Source: Hymenobacter sp. CRA2
Lineage (GTDB): Bacteria > Bacteroidota > Bacteroidia > Cytophagales > Hymenobacteraceae
Reading direction: 5' to 3'
Assembly (NCBI RefSeq): GCF_002007105.1
Contig: NZ_MVBC01000015.1
Location: 1-64,000 of the forward strand
DNA: 64,000 bases
How positions within the stretch are numbered: the stretch's first letter is position 1; the number at the start of each line of letters is the position of its first letter. This document shows positions 14,892 through 24,483 of this stretch, one piece after another. The position numbers and the translations under genes were made by a program. The notes under the pieces were generated by a model. The model ran no database searches. It was not told where the DNA came from and saw nothing but the letters and a program-made list of their open reading frames with translations.

Positions 14892-16193
14892 ATGGCAAAC
14901 CGCCTCAAACCCCTACCGCACGCCGTCTGGCAAGCCGAGCAAGCCCGCATAGTACTGGCCGCGGCCCGGCGCTTCGACTGGCGCCGCATGACACCCAAAG
15001 AGCAGGTCAGTCACCTGTTCAGCGTACAAGGACCGCTGCCCGTCGTCGATGCTCATTTCGGCGAAAACTCGGCCCTGACGCAGTTCTACCGCCACTGCGC
15101 CCACGAAAAAACCTGGGAACAGCGCAGCCGCTGCGCCATCCTGTTGAAGGGCCTGGCCGCCAAGCGCAGCACCCTGCTGTGGCGCCCCGAGCTGGCGGCA
15201 ACTCTGGCAGTCATGGCCGACTTCATGCGCCACCGCTGCCGCGAGCTGGCCGACTGGCAACCCCGCTCCCGGAATCCCTTCCGACAGCTGGAAAGCCTGG
15301 TGCGCCACCTCTTCGACCAGTACGGCGACGTGCCGGCCTGGATTATCAACTCCTGGACCGCCGGCCGCCTGCACGACGGTTTAACTATCGCCGACCTCAC
15401 GGTGCACCTGGGCCGCGGCGGGGCCTTGCGCACCTTTCACCGCCTGCCGGTGAAGCTCACCCGCAAGGTGGAGCACCACCTGCGCCAGGCGCCGGCGGGC
15501 TATACCTTCCTGCAGGCCCTGCGCTACGCCCAGCTCGCCGCCCGCGAGCAGCTGGACTGGCTCGGACCGGTGCTCGACTCCCGCCTGGGCCGCCGCCTGG
15601 AGCGCGACGACGAGTTCTGGCTGCGGGTGGTGGACTTCTTCGCCGCTGCGCCTATGGTCGAGCCGTACCAGCTCGGCCCTGTGTGCGACTGGATTCACCA
15701 GAAGCGCGCGGTGGGTATGGGTGACGAGCCGGCCCAGCCGGGCTTTTCACTGAGGGGGCGCTCCATGGCCAGCGTGCTGGCGCAAACGGCCAAGTGGCAC
15801 CGCCAACTGGCCAAGGATGCCCACCGCCAGCCCGACCAGGAGCCGGCATACAGCACCACGTGGGCGCCCATGCCGGTAGCCGATTTTGCTGGCGGTGGCA
15901 AGTGCAAGGTGCGCATTACCCAGCTGCTTAGCTACTGGGACCTGATTGACGAGGGACGCGCTTTGCGGCACTGCGTGGCCTCGTACCTCGGCGCCTGCCA
16001 GCGCGGCCGCAGCGGCATCTTTTCACTTACGCTCGACGGCAGCCGGGCCCTCACCCTGGAGGTGCAGGCCAACCGCACCGTGGTGCAAGCCCGGGGCCTG
16101 CTCAACCGGCGCCTCAACGAAGAGGAGCTAGGCTGGGTGCAGCGCTGGGCCACCGACAACCGCCTGGTGATTCCCAAGCACCTGTTTGGGTAA
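14892..16193 (+). CDS. PcfJ domain-containing protein
   Basis: A 433-residue cytoplasmic protein, rich in Arg, His and Trp. The C-terminal 110 residues carry the PcfJ-like signature: ITQLLSYWDLIDEGRALRHC followed by VASYLGACQRGRSGIFSL and an RALTLEVQANRTVVQARG strand. The His-Cys-V-x-SY motif is the family hallmark. The N-terminal 300 residues are helical (LWRPELAATLAVMADFM) and not otherwise recognised. PcfJ was named from enterococcal conjugative plasmids, but stand-alone chromosomal versions are common in Bacteroidota and their function is unknown. Same strand as, and 288 bp upstream of, the Ro60 gene, so a role in the same RNA system is an inference from position. Confidence 0.75.
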   Translation: MANRLKPLPHAVWQAEQARIVLAAARRFDWRRMTPKEQVSHLFSVQGPLPVVDAHFGENSALTQFYRHCAHEKTWEQRSRCAILLKGLAAKRSTLLWRPELAATLAVMADFMRHRCRELADWQPRSRNPFRQLESLVRHLFDQYGDVPAWIINSWTAGRLHDGLTIADLTVHLGRGGALRTFHRLPVKLTRKVEHHLRQAPAGYTFLQALRYAQLAAREQLDWLGPVLDSRLGRRLERDDEFWLRVVDFFAAAPMVEPYQLGPVCDWIHQKRAVGMGDEPAQPGFSLRGRSMASVLAQTAKWHRQLAKDAHRQPDQEPAYSTTWAPMPVADFAGGGKCKVRITQLLSYWDLIDEGRALRHCVASYLGACQRGRSGIFSLTLDGSRALTLEVQANRTVVQARGLLNRRLNEEELGWVQRWATDNRLVIPKHLFG

Positions 16194-16481: not shown

Positions 16482-18011
16482 ATGCGTTTCAACTTCGGAT
16501 TCCGCAAAAACAAGCCGGCCGACGTGGTGAACCACGCGGGGGCCGCCGCTTACTCGCTCACCCCGCAGCTGGAGCTGTACGCCGCCGTGGCTACGGCCGC
16601 GCTCAGCGACCAGTTCTACGAAAAAGCTGATACCCGCCTGCTGCGCCTGCGCGAGTTGGTGGCCAAAAACGAACCGCGCTTCGTGGCGCAGCTGGCCGTG
16701 TACGCCCGCGAAAAAATGTACCTGCGCACGGTGCCGCTGGTGCTAGCCGTGGAGCTGGCCCAGGTGCACCGCGGCGACAACCTCGTGAGCCGCTTGGTGG
16801 CCCGCGTGGTGCAGCGCGCCGACGAAATTACCGAGCTGTTGGCCTTCTACGCCGTGGCCAACCAGCGCCAGGGGCAGAAAACGCTGAACCGCCTCTCCAA
16901 GCAGCTGCAGAAGGGCCTAGCCCTGGCCTTCAACCGCTTCGACGGCTACCAGCTGGCCAAGTACGACCGCGCCGGCCAGGTGCGCCTGCGCGACGCCTTG
17001 TTCCTGGTGCACCCGCAGGCCAAAAGCCCGGAGCAGCAGGCCTTGTTCGACCAGCTGGTGCGCGGCGAGCTGCCGACGCCCTACACCTGGGAAACCGAGT
17101 TGTCGGCCCTGGGGCATCAGAAATTCGCCACGGAAGCGGCGCGGCAGACGGCCGTGCGGGCAAAGTGGGAGGAGCTGATCGGTAGCGGCAAGCTGGGCTA
17201 CATGGCCCTCTTGCGCAACCTGCGCAACATCCTCGAAGCCGAAGTATCGGCTGGGGCCATGGCGCAGGTGGTGGCAGCCCTCACCGACGAGCGGGCGGTG
17301 GCGCGCAGCAAGCAACTGCCGTTCCGCTTCCTGGCGGCCTACCGCGAGCTGCTGCAGGTGCGCTCCGGCCACGTGGCGCGCTTGCTCTTGGCGCTGGAAA
17401 CGGCCATTATGCACTCGGCGCAGAACCTGCGCGGCTTCGCGGCCGAGACCCGCGTGGTGGTGGCCTGCGACGTGTCGGGCTCCATGCAGCAACCCATTTC
17501 GCCGCGCAGCAAAGTGCTGCTCTACGACGTGGGCCTGGTACTGGGCATGCTCCTGCAGCGCCGCTGCCAGAACGTAGTCACTGGCATGTTCGGCGACCGG
17601 TGGAAGCGCATCGCAGTGCCGCAAGACCAGGTGCTGAGCAACGTGCAGGAGTTCTACCGCCGCGAAGGCGAGGTGGGCTACAGCACCAACGGCTACCTGG
17701 TGGTGCAGGACCTGATCCGTCACAACGAGCGGGTAGACAAAGTGATGATTTTCACTGACTGCCAGCTCTGGGACAGCACCGGCCACGGCACCTCCCTGGC
17801 CGACGTGTGGCGCCAGTACCGCCGCACCGTGGCGCCCACGGCCCAGCTCTACCTCTTCGACCTGGCCGGCCACGGCAACGCGCCGCTGGACGTGCGCCGC
17901 GAAGACGGGGTAGCCCTCATCGCCGGCTGGTCCGACAAAGTCTTCGACGTGCTGCAGGCGCTGGAAAACGGCGGCTCGGCCCTGGACGAGATGGAGCGGA
18001 TTGAATTGTAA
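16482..18011 (+). CDS. rsr: Ro60/TROVE domain protein (Rsr)
   Basis: A 509-residue orthologue of the Ro60 autoantigen. Residues 10-315 form the helical-repeat TROVE ring (ELYAAVATAALSDQFYEKAD, then PRFVAQLAVYAREKMYLRTV). Residues 325-500 form a von Willebrand A domain with a complete MIDAS: DVSGSM (Asp330), Thr402 in YSTNGY and Asp426 in IFTDCQ. Bacterial Ro60 binds Y RNAs on its outer surface, admits structured or misfolded RNA through the ring, and in Deinococcus is tethered by a Y RNA to polynucleotide phosphorylase. The ATG at 16482 is chosen because the longer frame begins inside the upstream repeat. A Y-RNA-like array lies 1.4 kb downstream and RtcB ligases follow, as in the Salmonella rsr-yrl-rtcBA locus. 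Confidence 0.93.
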   Translation: MRFNFGFRKNKPADVVNHAGAAAYSLTPQLELYAAVATAALSDQFYEKADTRLLRLRELVAKNEPRFVAQLAVYAREKMYLRTVPLVLAVELAQVHRGDNLVSRLVARVVQRADEITELLAFYAVANQRQGQKTLNRLSKQLQKGLALAFNRFDGYQLAKYDRAGQVRLRDALFLVHPQAKSPEQQALFDQLVRGELPTPYTWETELSALGHQKFATEAARQTAVRAKWEELIGSGKLGYMALLRNLRNILEAEVSAGAMAQVVAALTDERAVARSKQLPFRFLAAYRELLQVRSGHVARLLLALETAIMHSAQNLRGFAAETRVVVACDVSGSMQQPISPRSKVLLYDVGLVLGMLLQRRCQNVVTGMFGDRWKRIAVPQDQVLSNVQEFYRREGEVGYSTNGYLVVQDLIRHNERVDKVMIFTDCQLWDSTGHGTSLADVWRQYRRTVAPTAQLYLFDLAGHGNAPLDVRREDGVALIAGWSDKVFDVLQALENGGSALDEMERIEL

Positions 18012-18029
18012 GTGCAGCCGAAGCAGGCC

Positions 18030-18181
18030 GTCATGTCGAGCGTAGTCGAGACATCTCGCGTGCTGTCGTTGAACGACGGAAAAGACCATCATGCTGAGCG
18101 AAGCCGAAGCATCTCTACCGCTTCGTTGAGTTTACTATCCAACGACAGCACGCGAGATGTCTCGGCTTCACTCGACATGAC
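18030..18181. repeat. Nested inverted-repeat element
   Basis: The left arm GTCATGTCGAGCGTAGTCGA continues through ACATCTCGCGTGCTGTCGTTG. It returns in reverse complement on the right and ends GACATGAC at 18181, about 40 near-perfect bases. A different REP-like arm (CATCATGCTGAGCGAAGC) sits inside, so one element appears inserted in another. It follows the Ro60 stop by 18 bases and could terminate or stabilise that mRNA. Confidence 0.75.
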
Positions 18182-18266
18182 GAACTCAGCGAGGCAGCCG
18201 AGATTCCTCGACTGCGCGGACGCCAGATCAAGCATGTCAACCAGATAAACTAATTAAAGCCAAGCA

Positions 18267-18473: not shown

Positions 18474-19307
18474 ATGAACCGCGAACATCGTCAACAACTG
18501 GCCCGCCTCACCCTCGACGCCCTGCAGCAGGGTCACTACCAAACCGCCAGCGGCCGGGTAGTGTCCATCGAGGCCTGGCAACACGCTGCCCATCACGGCA
18601 GCTTGCTCTACCGGCCGGCGGACGCCGACGCGCTGGGGCAGGAACTCGGTTCGGCTATTTCGGACGCCCCACCCGCCGCGGTGCGCGTGTACCACGCCAC
18701 TACGCTGGAAGCCGCGGCCGCGCTCAGCGGGGAGTTTGCCCGCGTGGGCGTGCTGAACTTTGCTTCGGCCCGTAATCCGGGCGGCGGTTTCCTGGGCGGC
18801 AGTCAGGCCCAGGAAGAAAGCCTGGCCCGCTCCTCGGGGCTTTACCCGTGCATCGCGCAGTTCGGCGAGCTGTACCAGCACAATGCCCACCTGAACGGCC
18901 TGTACAGCGACTACCTGATTTACTCGCCCGGGGTACCGGTCATCCGCCACGACGCCGGTCAGTGGCTGGAGCAACCCTACCGCATCGACGTGATTACGGC
19001 GCCGGCGGTGAATGCCGGGGCGCTACGGCGCAACCACCCCGAGCTGCTGTCCGAGCTGGTGCCCACCATGCGGCGGCGCATCCGGCTGGTGCTGGGCGCG
19101 GCAGTCCGCCATGGCTGCGAAGCCCTGGTGCTGGGCGCCTGGGGCTGCGGAGTGTTTGGCAACGAGCCGGCCCAGGTGGCGCAGCTCTTCGCCGAGGTGC
19201 TGCAGGAGCCGGGCATCCGTGGCCAGTTCCGCCGCATCGACTTCGCCGTCTTCGACCCCGAGCCGCCGCAAAGCGCGCTGCAAGCCTTTGAAGCGGCTCT
19301 GCAATAG
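18474..19307 (+). CDS. TIGR02452 family microbial PARG-like macrodomain protein
   Basis: A 277-residue macro-type poly(ADP-ribose) glycohydrolase-like protein. The catalytic signature is intact: NFASARNPGGGFLGGSQAQE continuing EES, giving the GGG loop (residues 103-105) and the Gln-Glu-Glu with the catalytic Glu (113-115). The later DVITAPAVN and VLGAWGCGVFGN segments complete the macrodomain. Members remove ADP-ribose from protein or possibly nucleic-acid targets. The ATG at 18474 is chosen; the upstream leader is Pro/Arg-rich. It sits between the Ro60 gene and the Y RNA array on the same strand. A role in reversing ADP-ribosylation linked to RNA damage is inferred from position only. Confidence 0.88.
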   Translation: MNREHRQQLARLTLDALQQGHYQTASGRVVSIEAWQHAAHHGSLLYRPADADALGQELGSAISDAPPAAVRVYHATTLEAAAALSGEFARVGVLNFASARNPGGGFLGGSQAQEESLARSSGLYPCIAQFGELYQHNAHLNGLYSDYLIYSPGVPVIRHDAGQWLEQPYRIDVITAPAVNAGALRRNHPELLSELVPTMRRRIRLVLGAAVRHGCEALVLGAWGCGVFGNEPAQVAQLFAEVLQEPGIRGQFRRIDFAVFDPEPPQSALQAFEAALQ

Positions 19308-19366: not shown

Positions 19367-19488
19367 CTAACCCATCGGGTGCCGTTGCGGGGCGATACTT
19401 CGCTTGGTAGAAATGATCGGCCGTTTCGGCGGCCATCATTGGGTTCGACTCCCATACGCGCCCCACGCTTGTTGCCCCGATGGTTTAG
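19367..19488 (+). ncRNA. Y-RNA-like RNA, unit 1 (normal-order tRNA mimic)
   Basis: Outer stem CTAACCCATCGGG / CCCGATGGTTTAG (one mismatch), signature GGTGCCGTTG at 19378, inner stem GGGGCG/CGCCCC, 3' strand CTTGTTGCCCC. Between the inner-stem arms the order is that of a normal tRNA: TA, a D-arm-like hairpin with loop GCTTGGTA, a long hairpin (ATGAT..GGCCG/CGGCC.ATCAT) in place of the anticodon arm, then a T arm TGGG-TTCGACT-CCCA. The inner stem takes the place of the acceptor stem. It is the only unit in this order. Confidence 0.7.
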
Positions 19489-19513
19489 GGCCGAGTACCT
19501 AACTGAATACACC

Positions 19514-19661
19514 CCGCCGGGCGTCGTCGCCTTCACCTACTTAGCTTCGCTGACCTTCGGTTCGTGTTATAAGTTCGACTCTTATCGGGCCCGCTACTTA
19601 CCTACAAATAGGGCCTGTAGCTCAATGTAGAGCAGAAGTGAGGCATTTTTTACCCCGGCGG
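19514..19661 (+). ncRNA. Y-RNA-like RNA, unit 2 (permuted tRNA mimic)
   Basis: Outer stem CCGCCGGG/CCCGGCGG, signature GGCGTCGTCG, inner stem GCCTTCAC/GTGAGGC with one bulge, 3' strand ATTTTTTACCCC. The tRNA-like domain is circularly permuted: T arm ATAAG-TTCGACT-CTTAT (19569-19585), acceptor strands CGGGCCC and GGGCCTG pairing over 7 bp with an 18-base closing loop, then TA and D arm GCTC-AATGTA-GAGC (19620-19633). Six T residues follow the outer stem (19662-19667), so the 3' end is probably a terminator. Confidence 0.8.
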
Positions 19662-19673
19662 TTTTTTCATCAT

Positions 19674-19836
19674 CGTGCCGAAAGCGGGTGCCGTAGGAGC
19701 GCATTCCTTCGCTAGGGACCGGTGCCGCAAGGCGTGCGGGTTCAAGTCCCGCTCCGTCGCCTGTGGGGCGGCGGATGGCGAAAGGCAGACGCGCCGGTGT
19801 ATAAGGGCGCTCCGCGTGTTGCCCCGCCCCGGCACG
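19674..19836 (+). ncRNA. Y-RNA-like RNA, unit 3 (permuted class II, Leu-like)
   Basis: Outer stem CGTGCCG/CGGCACG plus GCGGG/CCCGC, signature GGTGCCGTAG, inner stem GGAGCGC/GCGCTCC, 3' strand GTGTTGCCCC. The mimic has a class II-type variable arm (TGCC-GCAA-GGCG), T arm GCGGG-TTCAAGT-CCCGC, acceptor TCCGTCG/CGGCGGA closed by 9 bases, then TGGCGAAAGGCAGACGCGCC. The last is close to the D arm of tRNA-Leu, compare the real tRNA-Leu at 40831 (TGGTGAAATTGGTAGACACG). It lacks an anticodon loop. Confidence 0.8.
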
Positions 19837-19846
19837 AAAAATATCC

Positions 19847-19988
19847 CCCGCAAATGGGTGCCGTAGAGCAGCGTTACTTCGTCGATTCACGGATTGCAGG
19901 TTCGAATCCTGCCTTTCTCAGCGGATTCCGCTGCGGAAGTCGCCACTGGTAGGGCACTACGCTGTTTCGCTTATTGCCCCGTTGCGGG
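19847..19988 (+). ncRNA. Y-RNA-like RNA, unit 4 (permuted tRNA mimic)
   Basis: Outer stem CCCGCAA/TTGCGGG plus GGG/CCC, signature GGTGCCGTAG, inner stem CAGCGT/ACGCTG, 3' strand CGCTTATTGCCCC. T arm GCAGG-TTCGAAT-CCTGC (19896-19912). Acceptor strands CTTTCTC and GCGGAAG pair at six of seven positions. Their closing loop AGCGGATTCCGCT is itself self-complementary, which extends the helix. The D arm is degenerate (GCC-ACTGGTA-GGGC). Confidence 0.75.
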
Positions 19989-20002
19989 CTCTGGTACCTG
20001 CG

Positions 20003-20156
20003 CCGTTGGGTGCCGTAGTCCAGCCTTACTTCGATTGAGATTCGCCGGGTCGCGGGTTCGAATCCCGCCTCCTCCACCGCTTTTTCATCCAATGGGGGAG
20101 TAGCTCAGCATGGTAGAGCAGGATATGTGGAGGCTGGGCGCTTTTTGCCCCAACGG
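20003..20156 (+). ncRNA. Y-RNA-like RNA, unit 5 (best-formed permuted mimic)
   Basis: Outer stem CCGTTGGG/CCCAACGG, signature GGTGCCGTAG, inner stem CCAGCCT/AGGCTGG, 3' strand GCGCTTTTTGCCCC. T arm GCGGG-TTCGAAT-CCCGC (20052-20068) follows a tRNA-like variable loop GGGTC. Acceptor strands CTCCTCC and GGGGGAG pair over 7 bp around an 18-base loop, followed by TA and a canonical D arm GCTC-AGCATGGTA-GAGC. Six T residues (20157-20162) follow. Read linearly, the 3' half of a tRNA precedes its 5' half. Confidence 0.85.
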
Positions 20157-20169
20157 TTTTTTGATTACT

Positions 20170-20318
20170 GCTGCTCGGGTGTCGTAGGGAGGCGTTACTT
20201 CGGCGAGACCTTAGGGTTGAGCGGGTTCAACTCCCGCAGCTGGCCGCTTCGGAGGCCGGTGACGCTCCTTCAACAAGAGCGTCGGCAACGCCCACCGCCC
20301 GTTGCCCTGGGTAGCAGC
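20170..20318 (+). ncRNA. Y-RNA-like RNA, unit 6 (permuted tRNA mimic)
   Basis: Outer stem GCTGCT/AGCAGC with a looser CGGG/CCC section, signature GGTGTCGTAG, inner stem GGCGTT/AACGCC, 3' strand CGCCCGTTGCCCT. T arm GCGGG-TTCAACT-CCCGC (20221-20237). Acceptor strands GCTGGCC/GGCCGGT pair with two G-U pairs around GCTTCGGA. The D-arm position holds a 7-bp hairpin GACGCTC/GAGCGTC without a GG in the loop, so this half is the least tRNA-like of units 2-7. Confidence 0.7.
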
Positions 20319-20325
20319 TTGGGTT

Positions 20326-20468
20326 CCTGATTGGTGTCGTAGCGCCGCCTTACTTCGTTATACGTCTGCAAGGCAGGTTCGAATCCTGCCGGTTGGGTTA
20401 ACCGCCAACCGTGGCTGAGTGGTCAAGCAAGACGGGCAAGTGGCTGCGCGGCAGGTCGCCCAATCAGG
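20326..20468 (+). ncRNA. Y-RNA-like RNA, unit 7 (permuted, Ser/Leu-type D arm)
   Basis: Outer stem CCTGATTGG/CCAATCAGG (9 bp), signature GGTGTCGTAG, inner stem GCGCCGCC/GGCTGCGC (seven of eight), 3' strand CAGGTCGCCCA. T arm GCAGG-TTCGAAT-CCTGC (20373-20389). Acceptor CGGTTGG/CCAACCG is a perfect 7-bp stem closed by GTTAACCG. Then TGGCTGAGTGGTCAAGC follows, very like the D region of class II tRNA-Ser. Confidence 0.8.
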
Positions 20469-20477
20469 GGTAGGGAC

Positions 20478-20549
20478 GGGCGAGGTGTCGTCGGGCAGCA
20501 TTCCTTCGACTGAAAACTGAACTGGGCTGCCGATTTATCACCCTGGCCC
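20478..20549 (+). ncRNA. Y-RNA-like RNA, unit 8 (minimal, no tRNA module)
   Basis: Signature GGTGTCGTCG at 20484, outer stem GGGC..GGTG/CACC...GCCC, inner stem TCGG(G)CAGC/GCTGCCGA with one bulged G, 3' strand GATTTATCACCCT. After the conserved ATTCCTTCG there are only about 17 bases, with no T arm or D arm. At 72 nt it looks like a Ro60-binding stem alone. Confidence 0.55.
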
Positions 20550-20567
20550 AAGCCTACTCGCCTTACG

Positions 20568-20662
20568 GCCGGATGCCGTAGGTCCTCGCTACTTCGACCT
20601 GTCACGTCGGGTAGTATGCGCTAGGCATATCCCACGGTGCGCGGACCGCCCGTTGCTCCGGC
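20568..20662 (+). ncRNA. Y-RNA-like RNA, unit 9 (hairpin, no tRNA module)
   Basis: Outer stem GCCGGA/TCCGGC, signature GATGCCGTAG, inner stem GGTCC/GGACC, 3' strand CCGCCCGTTGCTCC, and the conserved GCTACTTCG. The interior folds as a simple hairpin (GGGTAGTATGC / GGCATATCCC) with no T-loop sequence. It is the last unit before the rtcB gene. Confidence 0.6.
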
Positions 20663-20730: not shown

Positions 20731-22134
20731 ATGGCCAATCAATTACGCGGCAACGACCTTCGCCAGCTCGGATTTCCCGAAGGCCGGGCCATCGGGCTGG
20801 CGCTGGCCCAGCTGCAGCGCAAACACCTTAAGCGCCTCTCGCACACCGATCAGCTGGCGCTGCTCAAGCTCATTCTCGCCGAACCCAACAACTTCCTCAC
20901 CGACCTCGACTGGAGCCACACCGCGGCCGCCCTGCTGCCTCCGCCCAGCCGCCACATTGCCCTCACGGCCCGCAAGGACTACACTCTCTACGGCGCCGAG
21001 CACGTGGAGCCGGGCGCCATCCACCAGATGGAAACGGCCATGAAGCTGCCCGTGACGGTGGCTGGCGCGTTGATGCCCGACGCCCACTACGGCTACGGCC
21101 TGCCCATCGGCGGCGTATTGGCCACCGACAACGCCGTGATTCCCTACGCCGTGGGCGTCGACATCGGCTGCCGCATGGCGCTGAGCATCTTCGCCTTGCC
21201 GCCGCAGTACCTCGCCCAGCGGGTGCAGGAGCTGCGCAACGTGCTGCTGACCACCACCAAGTTTGGTAACCGCGACGTATTCCGCCACGGCCAGAAACTG
21301 GGCCACGAAGTGCTGGAGCGCGACGAATTCGCCGCTATTCCTTTCCTGCGCAACAAGCAGGAAACCGCCGCGGCGCAGATCGGCACCTCCGGCTCCGGCA
21401 ACCACTTCGTGGAGTTCGGCATCGTGGAAATCACCGACCCCACCAACGACATGGGCGTGCCGGTGGGCCAGTACCTCGGGCTGCTCTCGCACTCTGGCTC
21501 CCGCGGCCTGGGCGCGAGCATCGCGCAGCACTACACCAAGCTGGCCAAGGACACCTGCCAGCTGCCCGCCGAAGCCCAGCACCTCGCTTGGCTGACCATG
21601 GACTCGGAGGGCGGGCAGGAGTACTGGGCGGCCATGAACCTGGCCGGCGACTATGCCTCGGCCTGTCACCACCAGATTCACCAGCGCGTGGCCCGTGTGC
21701 TGGGCGAGCGGCCCCTGGCGAAAGTGGAAAACCACCACAACTTCGCCTGGAAGGAGCGTCTCGCCGACGGCCGCGAGGTCATCGTGCACCGCAAGGGCGC
21801 TACGCCGGCCGGCAAGGGCGTGCTCGGCGTTATTCCCGGCTCGATGACGGCCCCGGGCTTCATCGTGCGCGGCCGCGGGGTGGCTGAGTCGTTGGGCTCG
21901 GCCTCGCACGGGGCAGGGCGGCTGATGTCGCGCACCCGGGCCAAGGCCGAGCTGGGCGAAGCCGAGGTGCGCCGCCACCTGCAGCAGCACGGCGTGGAGC
22001 TCATCGGCGGCGGCCTGGACGAGGCGCCGATGGCTTACAAAGACATCCACACCGTGATGCAGAGCCAGCAGGACCTGGTGGACGTGCTCGGCACGTTCAC
22101 GCCCAAAATCGTGCGCATGGACGGCGGCGCTTAG
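20731..22134 (+). CDS. rtcB: RNA-splicing ligase RtcB (first copy)
   Basis: A 467-residue RtcB ligase, which joins RNA 2',3'-cyclic phosphate or 3'-phosphate ends to 5'-OH ends using GTP and Mn. All active-site elements are visible: DIGCRMAL (Asp144, Cys147), GNHFVEFG (Asn224, His225), HSGSRGLG (His254), ENHHNF and SHGAGRLMSR (His393, the guanylylated His). It carries an extra N-terminal domain of about 85 residues (LRQLGFPEGRAIGLALAQLQ) shared with the second copy and absent from the 408-residue E. coli enzyme. It lies directly after the Y-RNA-like array, so tRNA or Y RNA repair is the likely role. No rtcA cyclase gene is nearby. Confidence 0.95.
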   Translation: MANQLRGNDLRQLGFPEGRAIGLALAQLQRKHLKRLSHTDQLALLKLILAEPNNFLTDLDWSHTAAALLPPPSRHIALTARKDYTLYGAEHVEPGAIHQMETAMKLPVTVAGALMPDAHYGYGLPIGGVLATDNAVIPYAVGVDIGCRMALSIFALPPQYLAQRVQELRNVLLTTTKFGNRDVFRHGQKLGHEVLERDEFAAIPFLRNKQETAAAQIGTSGSGNHFVEFGIVEITDPTNDMGVPVGQYLGLLSHSGSRGLGASIAQHYTKLAKDTCQLPAEAQHLAWLTMDSEGGQEYWAAMNLAGDYASACHHQIHQRVARVLGERPLAKVENHHNFAWKERLADGREVIVHRKGATPAGKGVLGVIPGSMTAPGFIVRGRGVAESLGSASHGAGRLMSRTRAKAELGEAEVRRHLQQHGVELIGGGLDEAPMAYKDIHTVMQSQQDLVDVLGTFTPKIVRMDGGA

Positions 22135-22202
22135 GCTGTCGTGCAAGGATAGGTTGCTCGGGCAAGGGTCATTTGCTTGGCTTCGGGCTTGTTTTACCCT
22201 AT

Positions 22203-22305
22203 CGTCCTGAGCCGCAGGCGAAGGACCTTATCACCACTGAACGGCAGTCGCTCCAACGACTCGTTCACGCGTGGTAAGGTCCTTCGCCTGCAACTCAGAC
22301 TGACG
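22203..22305. repeat. Inverted-repeat intergenic element
   Basis: The left arm (CGTCCTGAGCCGCAGGCGAA onward to CACTGAACG) and the right arm (CGTTCACGCGTGG through CTCAGACTGACG) are near reverse complements over about 40 bases. It resembles the element at 16324. It lies between the first rtcB and the oxygenase gene and could act as a terminator or mRNA stabiliser. Confidence 0.7.
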
Positions 22306-22342
22306 CCTGTTTTCTGCTTATCTCCTGTACAATCACCTATTC

Positions 22343-22894
22343 ATGAACTGCATCCAACTCGCTGAATCCATCTACCTCATGGAGGACTTTCTGACCAAGA
22401 AAGAATGCCTCGACTACATCGTGCTCAGCGAAAAGCTGGGCTTCGAGCCGGCCAAAGTCAACACCAGCGGCGGCGCGCGGCTAGTACCGGGCATCCGCAA
22501 CAACAACCGCGCGTTTTACAAGAGCGAGGAGCTGGCCCAAACCCTGTGGGAAAAGGCCCAAGAATTTATTCCAACGCCGTTCGGCCATAGCGTGGCCACC
22601 GGGCTGAACGAGCTTTTTCGCTTCTACCGCTACCAGCGCGGGCACCAGTTCAGGGGGCACTTCGACGAAAGCTACGCTCGCAGCTCCACGGAGGCGAGTC
22701 TGTTCACGTTCATGATGTACCTGAACGACAACTTCCAGGGCGGCGACACGGCGTTCCGGGCCGTGCGGGTCCGGCCGCGGCAGGGCGCGGCGCTGCTGTT
22801 TGAGCACCGCCTGTTTCACGAGGGCAGCGAAGTCCGGCAGGGCGTGAAATACGTGCTGCGCACCGACGTGATGTACCAGCTGCCGGCGGAGTAG
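22343..22894 (+). CDS. 2-oxoglutarate/Fe(II) oxygenase, prolyl-4-hydroxylase-like
   Basis: A 183-residue double-stranded beta-helix oxygenase of the P4Hc type. The iron ligands are His106 and Asp108 (GHFDESY) and His159 (LFHEGSEV). The 2-oxoglutarate-binding Lys169 is in GVKYVLRTDVMY. Such enzymes hydroxylate protein side chains or nucleic-acid bases. The gene sits between two rtcB copies on the same strand, 152 bases ahead of the second, so its target may be RtcB, Ro60, a ribosomal protein or RNA. None of these is shown by the sequence. Start: the ATG at 22343 is the first in frame with good codon use. Confidence 0.85.
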   Translation: MNCIQLAESIYLMEDFLTKKECLDYIVLSEKLGFEPAKVNTSGGARLVPGIRNNNRAFYKSEELAQTLWEKAQEFIPTPFGHSVATGLNELFRFYRYQRGHQFRGHFDESYARSSTEASLFTFMMYLNDNFQGGDTAFRAVRVRPRQGAALLFEHRLFHEGSEVRQGVKYVLRTDVMYQLPAE

Positions 22895-23046
22895 GGGTCA
22901 TACTTGTGTCTTGGCAAGTCAGGTGTACATTTCCCGCATTGAAGACGCAGGTATGCGTCTCTACGTCAGGCTGGAATCAACCTCGACTGTAACTCCCAGG
23001 CGGTGGGACGCGCTACACCCGTTACCATCCTTCCCCTCGACCACCC

Positions 23047-24483
23047 ATGGCCAAAAACACCAATAAACTCCACAGCAAGGACCTGCGCCAGCTCGGCTTC
23101 ACCGACGACAAGCAGATCAGTCTGGCCCTTGATATCCTGGATCAGCGCGAGCTGCGCAAGCTCGATAAAGGCAGCGCCCTGGCTCTGCTGCGCGAAATCA
23201 AGGAAGACCCCTTCAAGTACGTGCGCGACCAAACCTGGCGCCCCTTGGCCCAGGAGCTGGTGCCCCAGCCCAGCCGGGAGGTGCGCCTCAGCCCCGATGT
23301 GAAAGACTACCGCCGCTACGGGGACTCCTTCATCGAAGATGGCGCCCGCCGACAGATGGACACGGCCATGCAGCTGCCCGTTACCATCGACGGGGCGCTG
23401 ATGCCCGACGCCCACCAGGGCTACGGCCTGCCCATCGGCGGCGTGCTGGCCGTCGACAACGCGGTGATTCCCTACGGCGTGGGCATGGACATCGGCTGCC
23501 GCATGGCCCTGTCGGTGTTCGACGTGCCGCCGCGCTACCTGGAGCAGCGCCGCGACGAGCTCAAGAAGCTGCTGCACAACCACACCCGCTTCGGCAACAA
23601 GGAAACCTTCAAGACGCCCGCCGACGATCCGGTGCTGGAGCGGCCCGAATTCAAGGAAATTGCCGTGGTGCGCGGCAAGCGCGAGGCGGCCATCAACCAG
23701 CTCGGCTCCTCCGGCTCCGGCAACCACTTCGTGGAGTGGGGCATCGTCGATATTACCGCCGAGGACAACGACCTGAATCTACCCGCGGGGCAGTACCTCG
23801 GGCTGCTCTCGCACAGCGGCTCGCGCGGGCTGGGCGCCGCCATTGCCCAGCACTACACCAAGGTGGCCATGAACCGCTGCCCCCTGCCGCCCGAAGCCCG
23901 CTACCTCGCCTGGCTCGACCTCGACACCCAGGAAGGCCAGGAATATTGGGCGGCCATGAACCTGGCCGGCGACTACGCCTCGGCCTGTCACCGCGACATC
24001 CACCGCCGCCTTGCCAAAGCCCTGGGCCAGGACGTGCTGGCCAAAGTGGAAAACCACCACAACTTCGCCTGGAAAGAAGAGCTGGCCGACGGCCGCACGG
24101 CCATTGTGCACCGCAAGGGCGCCACGCCGGCGGGGCAGGGCGTGCTCGGCGTCATTCCTGGCTCGATGACGGCGCCGGGCTTCATCGTGCGCGGCCGCGG
24201 CGAGCGGGACTCCATCCAATCGGCCTCGCACGGGGCGGGGCGGCGCCTCTCGCGTACGCAGGCCAAGCAGCAAGTGAGCGAAGGCGAATTGCGCCGGCTG
24301 CTGCGCGACCAGGGCGTGGAGCTCATCGGCGGCGGGCTCGACGAAGCCCCCATGGCTTATAAGGACATTCACCAGGTGATGGCGCACCAGCAGGACCTGG
24401 TGGACGTGCTCGGCTCGTTTCAGCCCCGCATCGTGCGCATGGACGCCGGCGGCGCGGGCAAAAGCAAGTACGGCGGGGAATAA
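23047..24483 (+). CDS. rtcB: RNA-splicing ligase RtcB (second copy)
   Basis: A 478-residue paralogue of the ligase at 20731. The catalytic set is again complete: DIGCRMAL (Asp148, Cys151), GNHFVEWG (Asn226, His227), HSGSRGLG (His256), ENHHNF and SHGAGRRLSR (His395). The N-terminal extension (LRQLGFTDDKQISLALDILD) is homologous to that of the first copy, so the pair arose by duplication of the longer form. They differ mainly in this N-terminal region and in the loop after KLLHNHTRFGNKETFKTP. Specialisation for different RNA ends or substrates is likely but unproven. A hairpin terminator follows at 24502. Confidence 0.95.
   Translation: MAKNTNKLHSKDLRQLGFTDDKQISLALDILDQRELRKLDKGSALALLREIKEDPFKYVRDQTWRPLAQELVPQPSREVRLSPDVKDYRRYGDSFIEDGARRQMDTAMQLPVTIDGALMPDAHQGYGLPIGGVLAVDNAVIPYGVGMDIGCRMALSVFDVPPRYLEQRRDELKKLLHNHTRFGNKETFKTPADDPVLERPEFKEIAVVRGKREAAINQLGSSGSGNHFVEWGIVDITAEDNDLNLPAGQYLGLLSHSGSRGLGAAIAQHYTKVAMNRCPLPPEARYLAWLDLDTQEGQEYWAAMNLAGDYASACHRDIHRRLAKALGQDVLAKVENHHNFAWKEELADGRTAIVHRKGATPAGQGVLGVIPGSMTAPGFIVRGRGERDSIQSASHGAGRRLSRTQAKQQVSEGELRRLLRDQGVELIGGGLDEAPMAYKDIHQVMAHQQDLVDVLGSFQPRIVRMDAGGAGKSKYGGE

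Follow-up and report, generated by a model that had tools for sequence, protein, structure and literature searches.

The window analyzed here is a 64,000-nucleotide (nt) stretch of Hymenobacter sp. CRA2 (contig NZ_MVBC01000015.1, positions 1 to 64,000), in which an intact Ro60 (TROVE) gene lies upstream of nine tandem, diverged units whose products are very probably Y RNAs. The genes run on the same strand in the order PcfJ-like gene, Ro60, microbial PARG, array, RtcB, 2-oxoglutarate (2OG) oxygenase, and second RtcB (Table 1). The pattern GRYGYCGTN10TMCTTMG matches nine times in the window, always on the plus strand and always inside the array (starts at 19378, 19520, 19687, 19857, 20009, 20178, 20333, 20484, and 20572), compared with a mean of 0.00 over 100 shuffles. 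This bears out the nine units with a shared 5' signature that had been proposed in an initial annotation of the window. The spacing from the signature to ACTTCG is exactly 19 nt in all nine units, while the intervening bases vary; the motif reads ACTTAG in unit 2 and CCTTCG in units 3 and 8. The 3' ending, earlier given as TTRCCCC or similar, is exact in units 1 to 5 and altered in units 6 to 9. By inspection, units 2 to 7 each run from a T-arm through a capped acceptor-like hairpin to a D-arm-like part; this order is supported by covariation for the unit type labeled 0, and it is absent from units 1 (T-arm alone), 8, and 9 (both without a T-arm).

Table 1. Features of the Ro60/Y RNA locus in the window. 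Identities to the genome's own tRNAs (units 3, 4, and 7) come from gapped local alignments with cheap gaps and are hence flattering.
Feature	Position	Strand	Remarks
Ro60 (Rsr), TROVE + vWA_Ro60	16485..18011	+	Pfam TROVE 3.6e-30, vWA_Ro60 1.7e-10; 83-90% identical in six congeners
PARG_cat_microb, macrodomain-type ADP-ribose hydrolase	18474..19307	+	Pfam 4.1e-42
Unit 1	19372..19483	+	P1 CCATCGGG/CCCGATGG; T-arm, then no acceptor hairpin or D-arm; tRNA score inside shuffled range
Unit 2	19514..19661	+	Permuted tRNA-like Y RNA; long-loop acceptor, D-arm; T-run 3' of P1; YrlA 28.9 bits; doubled core called tRNA
Unit 3	19674..19836	+	Permuted tRNA-Leu mimic, long variable arm; 65/74 aligned positions identical to own tRNA-Leu(tag)
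TAG at Leu anticodon position, unit 3	19713..19715	+	3' half of opened anticodon loop
Anticodon stem, unit 3	19794-19798 / 19718-19722		CCGGT/ACCGG
Unit 4	19847..19988	+	Permuted tRNA-like; own tRNA-Lys best match, 61/68 aligned positions
Unit 5	20003..20156	+	Permuted tRNA-like, class I variable loop; YrlA 40.9 bits; doubled core called tRNA
Mini-hairpin loop TTGAGAT, unit 5	20035..20041	+	U33-type, closed by CGA/TCG; no exact own-tRNA loop
Unit 6	20168..20317	+	T-arm, acceptor-like hairpin, D-arm-like hairpin by inspection; tRNA score inside shuffled range
Unit 7	20326..20468	+	Permuted tRNA-Ser mimic; 54/58 aligned positions identical to own tRNA-Ser(cga)
Unit 8	20470..20557	+	Short Y RNA without T-arm
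tRNA-Phe anticodon loop CTGAAAA, exact, unit 8	20510..20516	+	No clear stem
Unit 9	20567..20662	+	Short Y RNA without T-arm; 10/23 pairs compensatory
tRNA-Asp anticodon loop CTGTCAC, exact, unit 9	20599..20605	+	Closed by CGAC/GTCG
RtcB RNA ligase 1	20731..22134	+	Pfam 1e-83; 3' of array in 88/101 loci
RtcB RNA ligase 2	23047..24483	+	Pfam 1.8e-80

The units recur with Ro60 throughout the family. Among 204 Hymenobacteraceae genomes, Ro60 is present in 107, the strict signature in 105, and both in 104 (lists compared by eye); a reversed-pattern control gave no match in the same scan. Only one genome (G100) has the signature without Ro60, and the three with Ro60 and no signature (G101, G138, and G175) hold broken remnants. 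We delimited 101 family loci, comprising 100 of the 107 Ro60 genomes and a second Ro60 locus (L121), with G035, G091, G101, G108, G133, G138, and G175 left out. Units per locus numbered 0 in 1 locus, 1 in 2, 2 in 3, 3 in 12, 4 in 20, 5 in 25, 6 in 15, 7 in 16, 8 in 5, and 9 in 2; these counts are lower bounds because units with a deviating signature are missed. The initial annotation held a set of nine to be larger than those characterized, which is borne out in part: the highest count among the family loci is nine (median of 5), and some other Bacteroidota loci show 5 to 6 units.

From the family loci, 513 units were extracted and 470 analyzed, 43 being dropped for implausible length. The 8-mer of the end stem, P1, pairs with its own 3' strand at a score of 7 or more in 330 of the 470 units, versus 86 of 2,350 pairings with the strand of another unit type. 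For the second stem, P2, the corresponding counts are 179/470 and 85/2,350. Compensatory changes are found in 22 of 37 predicted pairs in an alignment of the unit 5 type (29 sequences) and in 10 of 23 for the unit 9 type (18 sequences). The stems quoted in the initial annotation are present at their places, and the pairing tests, made with swapped strands and with shuffles, agree with the covariation that pairing is kept despite differing sequence. A lack of conserved pairing in relatives, which that annotation had named as evidence against itself, was checked as well; pairing is conserved, with compensatory changes.

A covariance-model search with YrlA (RF02553), also suggested at the outset, gave a divided answer. 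Units 5 (E value of 3e-7) and 2 match below threshold, and no Rfam model reaches its gathering score in the window, the YrlA cutoff being 69 bits and the best scores 40.9 bits in the window and 44.3 bits in a congener. A genome search with RF02553 likewise found no match over the cutoff in 11 genomes, and the model is unfit for counting units because matches with an E value of 1 or less also occur in 13 of 14 control genomes. We base the assignment of the nine units as Y RNAs on the synteny with an intact TROVE/Ro60 gene, the near-complete co-occurrence and co-loss across the 204 genomes, the covarying end stems, and the sub-threshold YrlA matches, and on these grounds the identity first proposed holds up. 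Because the YrlA gathering score is not reached, the array is classed as bacterial Y RNAs yet not as YrlA. The paired ends of P1 form the predicted Ro60-binding stem. The Ro60 motif of bacterial Y RNAs is GNCGAA(N)G; at this site the units show GYCGUAG and the YrlA consensus has GgCgaAUG-like letters.

The resemblance to tRNA lies in an inside-out arrangement of the arms. A T-arm is found in 318 of the 470 units, including seven of the nine in the window, versus 10 of 9,400 shuffles. An acceptor-like hairpin stands directly 3' of the T-arm in 290 of these 318 (median loop of 4 nt; 133/318 when shuffled), and a D-arm-like motif then follows in 234 units. ARAGORN called none of 404 inner cores from relatives a tRNA when each was given singly, yet called 99 of 404 when the core was doubled and 0 of 404 shuffled doubled cores. 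Over 94 shuffled doubled cores, the best tRNA score averaged 36.9 with a maximum of 51.1; units 2, 3, 4, 5, and 7 exceed this maximum, at 59.1, 81.7, 61.1, 72.9, and 62.0. The likeness of unit 3 to the genome's own tRNA-Leu(tag) extends over a variable arm of class II and over TAG with the rest of the 3' half of the anticodon loop. Leu is the best match in all 11 type 9 units, in whose alignment the anticodon stem changes on both sides, as judged by eye. Scores assign an isotype clearly to just two unit types, 9 and 6 (mean margins of 23.2 and 20.6), and, within the window, to units 3, 4, and 7. Most type 0 units score best as Lys (44/83), by a small margin (5.6), and the remaining types are mixed. 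Units 2 to 5 and 7 are circularly permuted tRNA mimics, and unit 6 is one by its arms only; the tRNA mimicry put forward initially emerges more strongly than it had been claimed. Their acceptor ends are closed by a loop, and the units are therefore taken as mimics rather than tRNA genes. An ordinary tRNA gene, with a linear cloverleaf and a free acceptor end, was considered and rejected: ARAGORN finds no tRNA in the array of the window, and the acceptor is loop-closed.

Some unit types also carry, after ACTTCG, a mini-hairpin with a 7-nt anticodon-type loop in which U33 and purine 37 are kept and the triplet varies, a feature that goes beyond the initial annotation. In types 0, 7, and 63, a 3-bp hairpin with a 7-nt loop is found in 57 of 71 distinct sequences (14.8 when shuffled), while loop lengths of 4 to 6 and 8 to 10 are found one to eight times each. 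Among the 30 distinct loops of these types, U33 (loop position 2) is present in 26 and R37 (a purine at position 6) in 29. Type 4, to which unit 9 belongs, has the 7-nt loop in 27 of 28 sequences, with the U in all 27; over the types of unit 9 together, the count is 31 of 33 distinct windows. In type 1, the register is mostly TCG/CGA or TCG/CGG (45/58 versus 12.3 shuffled), and 21 of 31 distinct loops have the U. Exact anticodon loops of the genome's own tRNAs, among them Lys CTTTTAA, Phe CTGAAAA (in short units such as unit 8), Asp CTGTCAC (unit 9), and Pro loops, occur in 110 of the 470 units, compared with 8.75 in shuffled windows and 4.9 in other windows; column-shuffled loop sets average 24 with a maximum of 91, and none of 500 reaches 110.

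The triplets change between close relatives. Six congeneric type 0 units (unit 5 and its counterparts) read GAG in the window and UUU, UUG, GUC, UUA, and UUU elsewhere, and of 80 type 0 units of usable length, 72 have the hairpin, with 18 triplets. Over 43 type 0 pairs at most 10% diverged (mean of 7%), loop positions 1 to 7 differ in 7, 2, 21, 14, 19, 9, and 7% of pairs; among 28 independent pairs, the numbers of differences are 2, 3, 9, 3, 4, 0, and 4.

A contig scan for the signature found at least 120 stretches, 80 of them listed with titles, together with 21 viral stretches; the scan gives no frequencies. Ro60 lies in the sequence covered for 51 of the 80 listed stretches, 26 of 40 further ones, and 7 of the 21 viral ones, and many of the others look like chance matches. 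In an even sample of the phylum, the signature occurs in 6 of 296 genomes, three of them from the family of the window. We assembled an unrelated set of 140 units from the 80 and 21 stretches after removing 23 Hymenobacteraceae loci. Of its 37 tRNA-like units (15 to 24 nt before the T-stem), 17 have a 7-nt loop (7.5 when shuffled); these 17 loops are all different, R37 is present in every one of them, and U33 is present in 16. Exact loops number 16 in the 140 units, compared with 2.4 in shuffled windows, and column-shuffled sets reach that number in 4 of 1,000 cases. The remaining 40 stretches, less 16 that resemble Hymenobacteraceae, yielded 10 more such units; 4 of these have the 7-nt loop (2.2 when shuffled), each with U33 and R37. 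Separately, the seven viral contigs with both the signature and a Ro60-like gene (L313, L319, L323, L324, L328, L329, and L330) are phage-borne Ro60/Y RNA pairs, and L319 and L330 match YrlA at 36 to 37 bits.

Downstream of the array, RtcB1 (>70% identical) follows the units in most family loci, with the units between Ro60 and RtcB1 on one strand and the last signature a median of 209 bp from RtcB1. The 13 exceptions are 11 loci of other genera, two of which (L125 and L126) end soon after Ro60, one locus at a contig end (L022), and the unit-free L121. Across the family genomes, the units track Ro60 more closely than RtcB. In three loci (L122, L127, and L128), Ro60 is broken or a remnant while Y units and RtcB are still present, possibly early stages of loss. 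The two RtcB genes of the window (20731-24483) differ (64% identical), and RtcB2 is linked less constantly to the array in relatives. In many, not all, relatives a microbial PARG-type hydrolase gene separates Ro60 from the array, a hint of ADP-ribose or RNA-end chemistry in the pathway. The PcfJ-like gene (14892-16193 in the window) is 5' of Ro60 in many loci, lies inside the array ahead of the last units in L082, L084, L085, L088, and L102, lies between array and RtcB in L087, L089, and L104, and seems linked to the system. Long intergenic inverted repeats flank the cluster at 18029-18182 (43-nt arms, 93% complementary) and 22207-22298 (37-nt arms, 84%). Elements in two congener loci that by eye resemble the 18029-18182 repeat match Rfam AaHKsRNA41 below its cutoff, and the repeats perhaps belong to an interspersed family.

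These features suggest that the nine-unit set comprises tRNA decoys or adaptors. The array would encode nine Y RNAs that bind Ro60: once transcribed, they would be held through the P1 ends (GGTGYCGTAG at the 5' side and a UURCCCC-type 3' strand) as a Ro60 handle, with P2 and ACUUCG presenting a variable effector module. In units 2 to 5 and 7, and in unit 6 by its arms, this module is an inside-out tRNA with the predicted Ro60 handle at the site of the anticodon loop and the acceptor end sealed by a hairpin loop; the types of units 5 and 9 are among those showing an anticodon-type 7-nt loop in a small hairpin. With its free tRNA face, each RNA may capture or divert proteins acting on certain tRNAs; anticodon nucleases and tRNA-modifying enzymes are candidates, as is PNPase (the partner in RYPER), and the neighboring RtcB would reseal cleaved tRNAs. 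Taking this function jointly with the Y RNA identity, we consider it probable that the units are Ro60-held tRNA mimics that tether tRNA-binding proteins or anticodon nucleases or act as decoys for them; the tether or decoy step taken by itself is finely balanced and leans slightly toward doubt. A more tentative extension is that the RNAs of bacterial Ro60 form a rapidly evolving set of anticodon decoys or baits, which together display the elbow, the variable arm, and the anticodon loop of several tRNA isotypes (Lys, Leu, Ser, Phe, Asp, Pro, and others). On that tentative view, the changes of triplet from one sister species to the next would reflect something like an arms race with the anticodon nucleases of phages and rivals, and RtcB would repair the same cuts. 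A precedent for decoys exists: the tRNA-like domain of YrlA has been proposed to inhibit an anticodon nuclease competitively (PMC7790460). If the proposal is right, the array would extend known mimicry to several isotypes and to the anticodon loop, and it would link Ro60 ribonucleoproteins to RtcB repair beyond gene order. One Ro60 handle with many tRNA faces predicts which tRNA-binding proteins or nucleases each unit meets, and the role of the tRNA-like face becomes testable because one handle bears many faces, with the triplet changing while the loop form stays.

Several observations weigh against this interpretation. In the window, doubled cores are called tRNA for just two of the nine units (2 and 5), the tRNA scores of units 1, 6, 8, and 9 (42.1, 40.6, 29.5, and 42.7) fall inside the shuffled range, and exact own anticodon loops occur only in units 8 and 9; among relatives, 27 of 404 whole units given singly to ARAGORN also yield a tRNA call. 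The 7-nt hairpin is missing from type 3 (0/39), near the shuffled level in types 2, 5, and 8 (20/92 versus 17.5), and weak in the class II types (9/33 versus 5.2). The short types with the Phe loop keep the loop letters, but the closing stem is present in just 7 of 38 (6.0 when shuffled). Loops of other lengths are raised as well: type 1 shows this at 5 and 8 nt, type 4 at 8 and 9 nt (11/28 and 23/28), and both the unrelated units (15/37 versus 7.0 shuffled) and the further 10 (7/10 versus 2.2) at 9 nt. The 9-nt cases may in part be the same hairpin, one pair further out. The 16 exact loops of the unrelated set stand against a column-shuffled mean of 7.6, and some of its 140 units are chance pattern matches. 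In the 28 independent type 0 pairs, the first base of the triplet is the only position that is conspicuously fast, and R37 is fixed. No RtcB1 is seen downstream in the 11 loci from other genera, where about 7 kb of downstream sequence was covered in 9 cases, and RtcB1 orthologs also occur in some genomes without Ro60. The decoy step is itself a prediction from sequence and precedent, and the article that proposes the inhibition reports that YrlA is not cut by that anticodon nuclease (PMC7790460).

The units might instead be plain Y RNAs of the YrlA type, linking Ro60 through the tRNA elbow alone to PNPase or to some other protein with a general role in RNA processing; the array would then consist of multiplied, drifted copies, and the loops would be inherited remnants of captured tRNAs. 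Units 2 and 5 do match YrlA, in which the T-arm precedes the acceptor hairpin and the D-arm comes last; anticodon-type hairpins are found in only part of the units; and RYPER is the sole bacterial role with a mechanism in the portions available of PMC7790460, PMC8394870, and PMC4726728. Remnants, however, would be expected to lose the loop length, the U33 and R37 bases, and the closing stem, all of which types 0, 7, and 63 largely keep while the triplet changes, and unrelated lineages show this loop geometry again; exact Phe or Asp loops are present even in short units that lack a T-arm. We regard this explanation as rather unlikely. The 7-nt loop could also be a U-turn fold of general use, for packing or for contact with Ro60, that mimics no anticodon. 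This reading would account for the switching of triplets between species, and U33 and R37 suit the U-turn of a 7-nt loop whatever its triplet. It is harder to square with the exact own-loop matches, which beat 500 of 500 column-shuffled sets of equal per-position composition, and 996 of 1,000 in the unrelated units, and we find it improbable.

That the units act in cis, as an rtcB leader sensing the state of tRNA, is very improbable. They are codirectional with and upstream of RtcB1 in 88 of 101 loci, but they follow Ro60 more closely than RtcB, and the nine loci of other genera with sequence examined downstream have units and no RtcB1 there. A promoter and terminator scan of the array stayed at the shuffled level (terminator-like sites, 2 versus 1.6 shuffled). 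Least credible of all is that these are permuted tRNA genes processed into working tRNAs, or tRNA pseudogenes. The isotype-specific resemblance of units 3, 4, and 7 to the genome's own tRNAs would suit such an origin; the hairpin that closes the acceptor end in most T-arm units, the opening of the unit 3 anticodon loop into P2/P1, the presence of normal Leu(tag), Ser(cga), and Lys tRNA genes in the genome, and the disappearance of the arrays together with Ro60 all argue against it.

A literature search returned, among the matches listed, no paper on anticodon-type Y RNA loops or Hymenobacter Y RNA arrays; the main primary papers and reviews lay outside its reach, and this is hence weak evidence of novelty. 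In Deinococcus radiodurans, a Y RNA is bound by the Ro60 ortholog Rsr and described as the tether of Rsr to PNPase (PMC4726728, PMC7790460). PMC8394870 describes mimicry of the D, T, and acceptor arms with tRNA-type modification, and again a tether to PNPase. The Hymenobacter units would resemble the D. radiodurans Y RNA in being bound by a Ro60 ortholog, and the array differs from RYPER in having many units, some with anticodon-type loops. Like transfer-messenger RNA (tmRNA) and its permuted form, the units have a tRNA-like domain in permuted order, and RF04321 scores 32.2 bits on unit 5, below its cutoff; unlike tmRNA, their acceptor end is closed by a loop. The closest likeness is to YrlA (RF02553) of Salmonella-type rsr-yrlBA-rtcBA operons, which shares the paired ends, the order of T-arm, acceptor hairpin, and D-arm, the adjacent Ro60 and RtcB genes, and, with several units, the 3' strand CUUGUYGCC. 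The YrlA consensus, in contrast, lacks GGTGYCGTAG, ACUUCG, and any 7-nt mini-hairpin, having only CUA there. tRNA mimicry by Y RNAs is itself already known, and Chen et al. reportedly made the case in 2014. The array also differs from YrlA in its nine diverged units and in isotype-specific forms that include class II tRNAs, and we class it as a new form of bacterial Y RNA.

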